Assembly (NCBI RefSeq): GCF_040359615.1
Contig: NZ_CP132942.1
Coordinates: forward strand, 248,001-312,000
DNA from: Tunturibacter psychrotolerans
GTDB lineage: Bacteria; Acidobacteriota; Terriglobia; Terriglobales; Acidobacteriaceae
DNA length: 64,000 bases
Reading direction: 5' to 3'
Under the pieces are notes generated by a model that did no database searches, was not told the origin of the DNA, and saw only the letters and a list, made by a program, of their open reading frames with translations. The position numbers and the translations under genes are program-made. Of this stretch, positions 19,603 through 22,080 are shown piece after piece (within the stretch, counting starts at the first letter, position 1; the number at the start of each line of letters is the position of its first letter).

Positions 19603-19914
19603 CATATTTACTGTATTTACGGTAAAAACTTCGCCCCATCTACCGCTCCATGTCGCCATTCAATGCAGATTCTTGCCGTTCGATACCACATGCTTCGATA
19701 TGCCCCCCAAGCTGGGTACTGTTAAGGGGTGAGTCGAACAGGATCCCCGCTGCATCTGACAGGAAAAGCAATAGATAGGTCGATCAAGCGAGGGGTTGCT
19801 TCTCGCGGCAACCGTATCCGGGTCAGCAGTGTAAAAACGATTTAAATAGACGAAATTAAGTAACAATCCAGAAGATATCTCGATTATCAGACGGACACTC
19901 AGGAGATAAAGTAA
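19603..19914. other. leader region of the radical SAM gene with a near-perfect palindrome
   Basis: 312 bp without a gene. Immediately after the stop of the preceding gene lies a 20-bp palindrome, 19607-19626 (arms TTTACTGTA and TACGGTAAA, one mismatch, two-base centre). It has no T-run, so it reads more like an operator than a terminator. The end of the region carries AGGAGA before ATG 19915. A regulated promoter for the radical SAM gene is likely within it but I cannot place it. Confidence 0.35.
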
Positions 19915-22005
19915 ATGCCGAAGGCCAAAATTGCCGAAAAAGCTCTTACCTATGGAGCAAAAGCAGGTTGGGCAGTATTCAATAAGCTGAATTCGTTCAG
20001 CCCCAATGCCAGCTTCACCCCCAGGTGGAGCGACAAGCCGCTTCTCAAGAGCTATCAGAAAGAGAAGCCGCCCCTCGGCTGGCCCCGCACCACCGACTCC
20101 CTCTGTCCGAAGTGCATTCCTGAGATTCGTCAGCAGATCGTCGACGGCAAACTGCCGCACGAGATTCTGCTCAACGAGAAGGTCGGCGAGATCAAGGCGC
20201 AGATCATCGAGCGTGACGGCCAGATCCTGATGGTCAAGGACTGCCCCATCCACGGTCACTTCGAGGACGTCATGTCCATCGATCCGCCGATGATGAAGCA
20301 CCTCGAAGACGTCTTCCCGGGCCGCGACATCCGCGCCCACAATGACGAGAAGCTGCACAACCACGGCACCTCGACCGTGACGCACGGCCGCGGATCGGTT
20401 CTTACGATCGACCTGACCAACCGCTGCAACATGATGTGCGATCCCTGCTTCATGGACGCCAACCAGGTCGGCTTCGTCCACGAGCTGACGTGGGATGAGA
20501 TCAAGACCATGCTCGACAACGCAATCACGATCAAGCCGCGTCGTCAGATGAGCGTGCAGTTTTCCGGTGGCGAACCGACACTGTCGCCTTACTTCCTCGA
20601 CGCCGTCGCCTATGCCCGCAAGGTTGGTTACAACTCCGTGCAGGCCGCGACCAACGGCATCGAGTTCGCCAAGTCCAAGGAGTTTGCCAAGGCTGCCGCT
20701 GAAGCCGGTCTCCGCTACGCCTATCTGCAGTTCGACGGTATCGGCAACGCGCCGAACTCGCACCGTAAGGTCGGCAACGCATTCGACGTAAAGCTTCAGG
20801 CCATCCATAACCTGCATGAGGCCGGCGTGGACATCGTCCCCGTCACCTGCATCATCAACGGTATCAACAACGAGCAGGTTGGCCGCATTATCGAGTTCGC
20901 GCTCGACAACCCGAAGAAGATCAACTTCCTCTCCTTCCAGCCCGTCAGCTTCACCGGCCGCGACGAAGACATCTCCGACGAGCGCCGCCATGCGCAGCGT
21001 TACACTCTGTCGCACCTCGCGCACGACGTCCGTAACCAGACCGGCCTCGGCGAGAGCACCCGCGATTGGTTCCCAATCTCGTTCATGTCCACCTTCTCCG
21101 ACTGGGCCGACCTCGTGCACGGACCAGACCGCGACTGGGGCCAGCTCTCCTGCGGTTGCCATCCAAACTGCGGCATCGGCATGGCGCTGATGATCGATAA
21201 GGAAACCAAAGAAGCCGTTCCCGTCACCGCGTTCCTCGACGCAGTGCAGCTTGCTAAGGATGTCGCGAAGATCAACGACGCGGCTCGCGGCAAGTTTCTT
21301 TCGATCCTGGGTGTGTCGCTTGCGCTGCTGCGCAACTACGACCCGTCAAAGGCTCCTACGCACTTCAAGATCGTCGACCTGCTGCAGAAGTTCGATAAGT
21401 GCTTCGGTGCCACCGGAAAGAACTACGGCAAGGTCACAGCGGACCGCACCATGGCCGACATCGAGAAGCGCCGCGCCGACCGCTGGAACTTCCTCTTCAT
21501 CGCCGGCATGTGGTTCCAGGACCTCTTCAACTACGACTTCCGCCGCACCGAGCAGTGCATCATCCCCTACGCCACACAAGAGGGTGAGATCAGCTTCTGC
21601 GCGTACAACACCGGCGTGGGCTGGCGCAACATCATTGAGAAGATGCACATGACCTCCACCCTGACCAAGTGGTACGAGGAGCATGGCCGCCACGAGATCT
21701 TCGCCGGTGGTAAGAAGGTCGGTCTCGAAGCCGAGATGAAGTACGACCTCGTCCTCAACGACGAGCACGTCAACGCCGCCGCCAACGACACCTTCGACAA
21801 GTCCGGCATCGCGAAGAACTCTCGCGAAGAGAAGATCCGCGCACGCGATGCGAAGATCAAGCAGGATGCCGAAAACGCCCGCATGGCCAAGCTCTACCGC
21901 AAGGAGATCCTCCAGGAGCCCGACGCTCCCGCTGGTTTCATCTCCCTCGGCGAGATCAAGGCAGCCCCGGCACCCAAGGTCGAGGAGACCGTCTCAGGCG
22001 ACTAA
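19915..22005 (+). CDS. radical SAM protein of the tetraether/membrane-spanning lipid synthase (Tes/MSS-like) type
   Basis: 696 residues. The N-terminal iron-site pattern has SLCPKC (C64, C67) and KDCPIHGHF (C110), as in Tes MJ0619-like proteins. The radical SAM core has NRCNMMCDPCF (C171, C175, C178) and the SAM-binding FSGGEPTLSPY. Further cysteine groups for extra clusters follow: SCGCHPNC (C413, C415, C419), C496, C548 and C562. A charged helical tail runs from about 620. In archaea Tes joins lipid tails C-to-C; bacterial homologues are linked to membrane-spanning diabolic-acid lipids, which Acidobacteriota are known to make. The role here is inference. It stands alone between an unrelated gene pair and its own terminator. 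Codon use is strongly C-ending. Confidence 0.78.
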   Translation: MPKAKIAEKALTYGAKAGWAVFNKLNSFSPNASFTPRWSDKPLLKSYQKEKPPLGWPRTTDSLCPKCIPEIRQQIVDGKLPHEILLNEKVGEIKAQIIERDGQILMVKDCPIHGHFEDVMSIDPPMMKHLEDVFPGRDIRAHNDEKLHNHGTSTVTHGRGSVLTIDLTNRCNMMCDPCFMDANQVGFVHELTWDEIKTMLDNAITIKPRRQMSVQFSGGEPTLSPYFLDAVAYARKVGYNSVQAATNGIEFAKSKEFAKAAAEAGLRYAYLQFDGIGNAPNSHRKVGNAFDVKLQAIHNLHEAGVDIVPVTCIINGINNEQVGRIIEFALDNPKKINFLSFQPVSFTGRDEDISDERRHAQRYTLSHLAHDVRNQTGLGESTRDWFPISFMSTFSDWADLVHGPDRDWGQLSCGCHPNCGIGMALMIDKETKEAVPVTAFLDAVQLAKDVAKINDAARGKFLSILGVSLALLRNYDPSKAPTHFKIVDLLQKFDKCFGATGKNYGKVTADRTMADIEKRRADRWNFLFIAGMWFQDLFNYDFRRTEQCIIPYATQEGEISFCAYNTGVGWRNIIEKMHMTSTLTKWYEEHGRHEIFAGGKKVGLEAEMKYDLVLNDEHVNAAANDTFDKSGIAKNSREEKIRARDAKIKQDAENARMAKLYRKEILQEPDAPAGFISLGEIKAAPAPKVEETVSGD

Positions 22006-22050: not shown

Positions 22051-22080
22051 AGAAGGCCGCCAGCAATGGCGGCCTTTCTG
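22051..22080 (+). terminator. Rho-independent terminator of the radical SAM gene
   Basis: Stem AAGGCCGCC (22053-22061) with GGCGGCCTT (22068-22076), six-base loop AGCAAT, then TTCTGCTTGGGTTT. It is 47 bp after the stop. Confidence 0.7.

Follow-up and report, generated by a model that had tools for sequence, protein, structure and literature searches.

The 64-kb window analysed here (the whole stretch of contig NZ_CP132942.1 under study) carries a forward-strand open reading frame (ORF; positions 19915-22005, ATG start) for a 696-residue radical S-adenosylmethionine (SAM) protein. Judged from its sequence, we take this protein to be the acidobacterial synthase that would join lipid tails end to end into iso-diabolic acid lipids, a reading to which we assign a probability of roughly 0.78. 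The preliminary description of this DNA had proposed a Tes-type enzyme coupling tails to diabolic acid. The family assignment held, with sequence, fold and tree all grouping the protein with the tetraether lipid synthase Tes; the coupling stays plausible, since the genus to which the organism appears to belong (Edaphobacter or near kin) makes the product and the genome has one Tes-like gene, with the correction that this product is iso-diabolic acid. Tes homologues have been found in Acidobacteria and bacterial homologues proposed for branched glycerol dialkyl glycerol tetraethers (brGDGTs; Zeng 2022), and Tes homologues of Solibacter usitatus have been proposed as well (Halamka 2022); the central proposal thus has precedents. 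In 2025 the acidobacterial tail-coupling enzyme was still called unconfirmed. Among open-licence papers we found no published account of the missing N-terminal cluster or of the repeat array described below.

The best NCBIfam match of the protein was Tes (NF045702, 315.7 bits, E = 4.8e-94), and the closest solved structure by sequence was Methanocaldococcus jannaschii GDGT-MAS/Tes (MJ0619, PDB 7tol and 7tom; E = 5.7e-61), with identities to archaeal Tes of 30-34%. The predicted fold matched Tes along its whole length, beyond the radical SAM core, in fold-match lists from which the absence of a family does not exclude it. Phylogenetic analysis with IQ-TREE covered 46 proteins, all of them Acidobacteriota or archaeal-type: 21 of the 49 aligned rows of the window's type (hereafter the long type), 13 shorter Acidobacteriota proteins and 12 of the 14 archaeal-type rows, with TrsS-like rows excluded. 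In this tree against archaeal Tes, a comparison that the preliminary description had suggested, the protein was not placed outside the Tes family. The long type formed a single clade (100/100) within a 32-row Acidobacteriota clade (100/100), which also took in 11 of the 13 shorter proteins (L038-L049, L059). These shorter proteins (511-579 residues, 32-40% identical to the window's protein) have the full set of Tes ligands, N-terminal cluster included, and the four scanned members of the 32-row clade score above the Tes cut-off (L038, 522.9 bits; L040, 493.3; L041, 619.1; L042, 587.7). L048 and L049 also lie above the cut-off but branch outside the Acidobacteriota clade, where they join the archaeal-type row P0159 with weak support; the archaeal-type rows therefore do not make up one side of a branch.

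Archaeal Tes is described as having a rubredoxin-like site (C9, C12, C33 and H36), an N-terminal [4Fe-4S] cluster (N-cluster) on C73, C77, C80 and a histidine, and a C-terminal cluster (C-cluster) with the labile ligand Met439 (Lloyd et al. 2022, PMC9433317); we infer from conservation that the cysteines of the C-cluster are C338, C455 and C470, the source naming Met439 only. We aligned 69 Acidobacteriota frames (49 of the long type, 13 shorter Tes-like, 5 TrsS-like and 2 other radical SAM proteins) with the 14 archaeal-type Tes proteins. The window's C419, C548 and C562 align with C338, C455 and C470, and M532 with Met439; all four counterparts are kept in 49/49 long-type rows, as is the radical SAM CX3CX2C triad, present here as predicted at C171, C175 and C178. 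The SLCPKC (C64, C67) and CPIHG (C110, H113) elements noted earlier were both found, and the four rubredoxin-like ligands (C-X2-C ... C-X2-H) are complete in 48 of the 49 rows, L028 having G for H. The comparison with the solved enzyme therefore upheld the C-terminal ligands, the triad and the rubredoxin-like site and failed at the N-cluster, whose triad occurs in none of the 49 long-type rows and in every row of the three other Tes and TrsS-like groups (13/13 shorter Tes-like Acidobacteriota, 5/5 TrsS-like and 14/14 archaeal-type). A wider motif count over three lists of the best 120 proteins each, two of the long type and one archaeal-type, gave the same division: the N-cluster motif was present in 0/240 long-type proteins versus 119/120 archaeal-type ones (the exception, P0145, is N-terminally short), whereas an HxHG motif was present in 239/240 versus 0/120 and a full CxCHxxC motif in 240/240 versus 0/120. 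A methionine pattern was found in 119/120 and 120/120 of the long-type proteins and 115/120 of the archaeal-type ones; a simple rubredoxin pattern (CX2C followed by CPxHG), whose spacing and letters are too strict for an assessment of the site, matched 117/120 and 63/120 in the same two long-type lists and 43/120 in the archaeal-type list. Besides these motifs, the window's protein differs from archaeal Tes in its N-terminal helix and its long charged tail.

The preliminary description had listed cysteines at 413, 415, 419, 496, 548 and 562 as likely to hold additional clusters. All six exist, but C419, C548 and C562 are counterparts of the known C-cluster, and rather than gaining clusters the protein apparently lacks one of those of Tes. 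Of the other three, C413 is found in 49/49 long-type rows, 3/13 shorter rows (L038-L040) and 0/14 archaeal-type rows, a cysteine at the position of C415 in 48/49, 8/13 and 7/14, respectively, and C496 is a cysteine in 12 of the 49 long-type rows. L038-L040 are also the nearest rows to the long-type clade (100/100) that keep the N-cluster, yet they have C413, and L038 has C415 too; C413 may thus have arisen before the N-cluster was lost, and these three proteins may be intermediates between the two sets of cluster ligands. Two divergent clade members, L072 and L074, have cysteine-rich C-terminal tails (GGGCGCH and GTGCGCH).

The Pfam domain and several database relatives bear the name of a pterin-methylating enzyme, and the second NCBIfam match was TrsS (NF045646, 204.6 bits), which has in common with the protein a radical SAM core and the N-terminal ribbon ligands. 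That the protein is a TrsS-like or pterin-methylating enzyme, as in the old family annotation, is nonetheless very improbable. Its score does not reach the TrsS cut-off of 490, and five TrsS-like rows (labelled so from profile scores for L051 and L053 and from tree position for the other three) fell outside the Tes clade in a quick tree, which was flagged for long branches. The complete C-cluster set of three cysteines and a methionine is absent from all five: three lack the cysteines, and L053 and L061 have them with histidine in place of methionine. The pterin role of the archaeal enzyme, moreover, is described as not corroborated in PMC9433317.

Several observations weigh against assigning iso-diabolic acid synthesis to this protein. 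Its 315.7 bits fall short of the NF045702 equivalog cut-off of 450, a value exceeded in 0/9 genomes behind named Acidobacteriaceae records; the ligands of the N-terminal [4Fe-4S] cluster are missing; and Tes R210, which contacts 5'-deoxyadenosine (PMC9433317), is replaced in 49/49 long-type rows, whereas it is retained in all 32 other rows of the Tes and TrsS-like groups. The stem branch of the long-type clade measures 1.28 changes per column, a length over which the substrate could have changed. Conserved lipid-gene neighbours were not found at the 39 loci of at least 15 kb among the best 80, and as of 2025 no activity had been demonstrated for bacterial Tes homologues. The long stem, the HxHG and CxCHxxC motifs and the changed R210 would also suit a radical SAM enzyme that acts on lipid tails in some other way, for instance by coupling them differently, by cyclising them or by forming an unusual membrane-spanning product, in cells that make iso-diabolic acid otherwise, as would a second gene in some genomes: a single Tes-like gene is present in eight of the nine genomes linked to named records and two are present in that of L120 (Acidicapsa; 317 and 256 bits), and G061, of the window's genus, has two copies of the long type. 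We regard this as unlikely, because the C-cluster ligands and the fold are retained and a second Tes-like gene is absent both from the window's own genome (5.64 Mb, 99% complete), where the next radical SAM protein scores 55 bits with the Tes model, and from Edaphobacter modestus DSM 18101. Below the Tes score threshold and without the N-cluster, but with a Tes-like fold and catalytic anatomy, the protein is best filed as a variant that would work like Tes.

The lipid record of close relatives is consistent with an iso-diabolic acid synthase. Six Edaphobacter strains contained 11.8-30.4% iso-diabolic acid among their fatty acids, with 30.4% in E. modestus DSM 18101 (PMC11354219), whose protein is 94% identical to the window's; the identity to that of Edaphobacter lichenicola M8UP22 (NZ_JACCCU010000003.1) is 95%. 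As E. modestus DSM 18101 combines abundant iso-diabolic acid with a single Tes-like gene, of the long type, the coupling question narrows to one gene there and in the window's own genome. More broadly, iso-diabolic acid accounted for 20-40% of fatty acids across 17 cultures from subdivisions 1 and 3, and a survey of 46 strains from seven subdivisions found it in subdivisions 1, 3, 4 and 6 (PMC13274423); it is also listed for Chloracidobacterium (PMC12816986).

Alternatively, this gene might be a side branch, with iso-diabolic acid coming from an unrelated Mss-type synthase. Thermotoga Mss is the bacterial synthase for which a test in E. coli has been reported (PMC11604127, PMC13274423), although later co-expression with ger in that host yielded no membrane-spanning lipid (PMC11604127), and in Black Sea Acidobacteria metagenome-assembled genomes (MAGs) Mss homologues (11/97) were counted apart from Tes homologues (17/97). 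Mss of Thermotoga and Bacillota, which we compared by description only, is credited with the same proposed tail-to-tail coupling of fatty acids and with the architecture of Tes (2026, PMC13274423; PMC11604127), and its product in Thermotoga is diabolic acid rather than the iso-diabolic acid proposed here. The shared architecture speaks against an unrelated synthase; in the window's own genome, searched with the Tes model and not with an Mss sequence, no other gene exceeded 55 bits. We consider this alternative improbable.

Elsewhere in the same genome (L187:9439-13287, C1 about 3465438-3469286) lies a gene for a 1282-residue protein with BcrAD_BadFG and DUF2229 domains, preceded upstream by one for a 480-residue radical SAM protein (L187:6228-7670). 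By its domain make-up, which Ger/PlsA enzymes presumably share, the 1282-residue protein is a candidate Ger/PlsA-like ether-forming enzyme. Activation domains of the BcrAD_BadFG type are named in PMC13274423.

If the protein is an iso-diabolic acid synthase, its mechanism might follow that of Tes. A reduced [4Fe-4S] cluster on C171, C175 and C178 would cleave SAM, and the resulting 5'-deoxyadenosyl radical would abstract a hydrogen at the omega (terminal) carbon of an iso-C15 acyl chain belonging to a phospholipid held in a hydrophobic tunnel. A sulfide of the C-cluster (C419, C548, C562), whose open iron M532 would cap, would hold the carbon radical in the meantime; a second SAM would activate a second chain, and the two carbons would join to give 13,16-dimethyloctacosanedioic (iso-diabolic) acid within a membrane-spanning lipid. 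For M. jannaschii Tes, the radical chemistry, a carbon-sulfur intermediate on a cluster, the metal ligands and lipid binding have been demonstrated. The iso-C15 substrate and the same coupling cycle in this organism are inferred by analogy; iso tails end like archaeal tails (Zeng et al. 2022). Loss of the N-cluster may alter the electron supply or donor, or oxygen tolerance, which would suit aerobic cells. Two new Edaphobacter strains produced no biomass without oxygen (PMC11354219). The named proteins among the best 120 archaeal-type matches come from methanogens and other, mostly euryarchaeal, lineages, and for this reason the argument from oxygen is a conjecture. As modelled, the moderately amphipathic N-terminal helix might, also conjecturally, touch the membrane.

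Within its class, the gene was kept in all 33 sampled genomes, those of its genus and family among them, at 75-100% identity. Across 297 Acidobacteriota genomes, 269 had any match, the best E-value being weaker than 1e-190 in 126 of these, and 143 had the long type as judged by score, ligands having been inspected in the 49 aligned rows. The remaining genomes comprised 23 with a classic Tes-like match only, 6 ambiguous, 97 with weak radical SAM matches and 28 with none; several families, f23 for example, lack the long type. Organism-named long-type proteins in one list of the best 120 were all from Acidobacteriota, including Candidatus Polarisedimenticolia, one of its classes, and so were 78 of the best 80 named loci, the other two being labelled as a gammaproteobacterial MAG, which we take to be mislabelled bins. 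Carriage on plasmids was considered and rejected, the 19 records all being weak radical SAM matches below 30% identity.

The preliminary description had envisaged a solitary gene with a palindromic leader. Conserved partner genes or an operon were rejected as candidates, the tes-like gene occurring at all 39 of the loci of at least 15 kb and its best neighbour at 13. The leader holds tandem direct repeats, with starts at 19656 and 19676, and not a palindrome; a structured 5' RNA was likewise dismissed after a search for direct and inverted repeats, a folding z-score of +1.05 (no better than shuffles) and 0 Rfam matches. In 91 nonredundant sequences out of 106 full-length upstreams, the repeat pattern CCRTTCR occurred 139 times forward and 5 times in reverse versus 10.1 expected, its copies precede promoter-like sequence, and 78 of 90 pairs were spaced by 20, 21, 40 or 41 bp. 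In-phase pairs were present in 51/91 upstreams (17/29 Terriglobales and 3/7 Bryobacterales loci, by order), versus 0/91 on the reverse strand, 0/1410 random windows of the same loci and 0/577 regions preceding their other long ORFs. With the exact pattern, 40/91 upstreams have no in-phase pair and 20/91 no copy at all; outside the class, in-phase repeats were not seen before 19 long-type copies, three of which have single copies, and at the same-phylum loci L026-L028 the pattern was not found. A spacing of two helical turns between direct repeats that lie upstream of a promoter suggests that an activator binds one face of the DNA, and this presumed protein, recognising the 20-21-bp repeats, probably controls the tes-like gene as a single transcription unit.

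Genome-wide, the strict repeat pair occurs once in the window's own genome, before the tes-like gene, and a looser pair gave 4 matches versus 2 in a backward control. In 60 genomes of the family there were 15 matches, of which 6 precede tes-like genes, counting the one in the window's own genome, and 9 lie elsewhere, versus 7 in the backward control. A triple pattern matched in 4 of 119 genomes of the phylum versus 2 backward-control matches; one of the four lies at tes by position (G036) and another in a genome full of short CCATTCG-type repeats. No second target of the array was seen with the pattern, which misses weak sites, its strict form finding few tes promoters. Many CCATTCG-type short tandem repeats occur in G011 (family f12; for example L188 and L192-L199), in a setting unlike the tes promoter array.

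Should the assigned function hold, Tes-type coupling survives the loss of one of three iron-sulfur clusters, which would bear on the roles of these clusters, called unclear in PMC9433317, and on how such an enzyme works in air. The repeat array would offer a handle on the control of iso-diabolic acid production. The brGDGTs, which serve to reconstruct past temperature and pH, are considered to be built in part from iso-diabolic acid, and an old puzzle about these climate-proxy lipids becomes testable on one gene. More speculatively, and doubtful as a whole, Acidobacteriota may have evolved, a single time, a cluster-reduced, tetraether-type synthase that works in air-grown cells, the surface [4Fe-4S] cluster being lost and HxHG and CxCHxxC arising, and in Terriglobia a dedicated repeat-reading regulator may control this one gene; such a regulator would be the switch through which iso-diabolic acid and the brGDGT lipids of palaeoclimate work depend on temperature or oxygen.

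Table 1. Features of the tes-like gene, its product and its flanks (positions in the window)
Feature	Position	Strand	Basis
Tandem pair of direct repeats, CCATTCA and CCGTTCG, with starts spaced by 20 bp; putative activator sites	19656..19682	+	repeat counts in upstreams
TTCGAT and TACTGT, separated by 17 nt, a weakly matching promoter-like pair	19694..19722	+	position downstream of the repeats; consensus scan did not list the pair
Shine-Dalgarno AGGAGA	19901..19906	+	AGGAG precedes the start in 19/21 listed upstreams (exceptions L011, L014)
Tes-like radical SAM protein, 696 aa, candidate iso-diabolic acid / membrane-spanning lipid synthase	19915..22005	+	sequence, model, tree
N-terminal helix, residues 3-26	19921..19992	+	inside a ~55-residue extension without counterpart in M. 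jannaschii Tes
Rubredoxin-like / HMPTM zinc-ribbon domain, residues 57-121 (C64, C67, C110, H113)	20083..20277	+	Pfam and alignment
HxHG motif (H148, H150), in place of the Tes N-terminal [4Fe-4S] ligands	20356..20367	+	alignment, motif count
Radical SAM core, residues 167-329 (C171, C175, C178)	20413..20901	+	Pfam and alignment
CGCHPNC motif, residues 413-419 (C419 aligns with Tes C338)	21151..21171	+	alignment
Rest of presumed C-terminal cluster ligands: M532 (Tes labile Met439), C548, C562	21508..21600	+	alignment
Charged C-terminal tail, residues 603-696	21721..22002	+	sequence, model
Hairpin with perfect 10-bp stem, possible terminator, weak T run	22053..22076	+	repeat search; terminator scan did not list the hairpin

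The charged helical tail, which it had been suggested may set the protein apart from archaeal members, exists and does so; its predicted structure has a helix at residues 636-664 and a pLDDT (predicted local distance difference test score) below 50 at residues 674-696. The terminator noted earlier is confirmed as to its hairpin, which is perfect over 10 bp, and less so as to function: the weakly T-rich sequence directly 3' of it is TCTGCTTGGGTTT, and the terminator scan gave no such entry. The window was also searched for tRNA genes, with none found in its 64 kb. On the minus strand, an antisense frame of 500 residues (19660-21162) overlaps the tes-like gene and appears to be a shadow of the coding strand.
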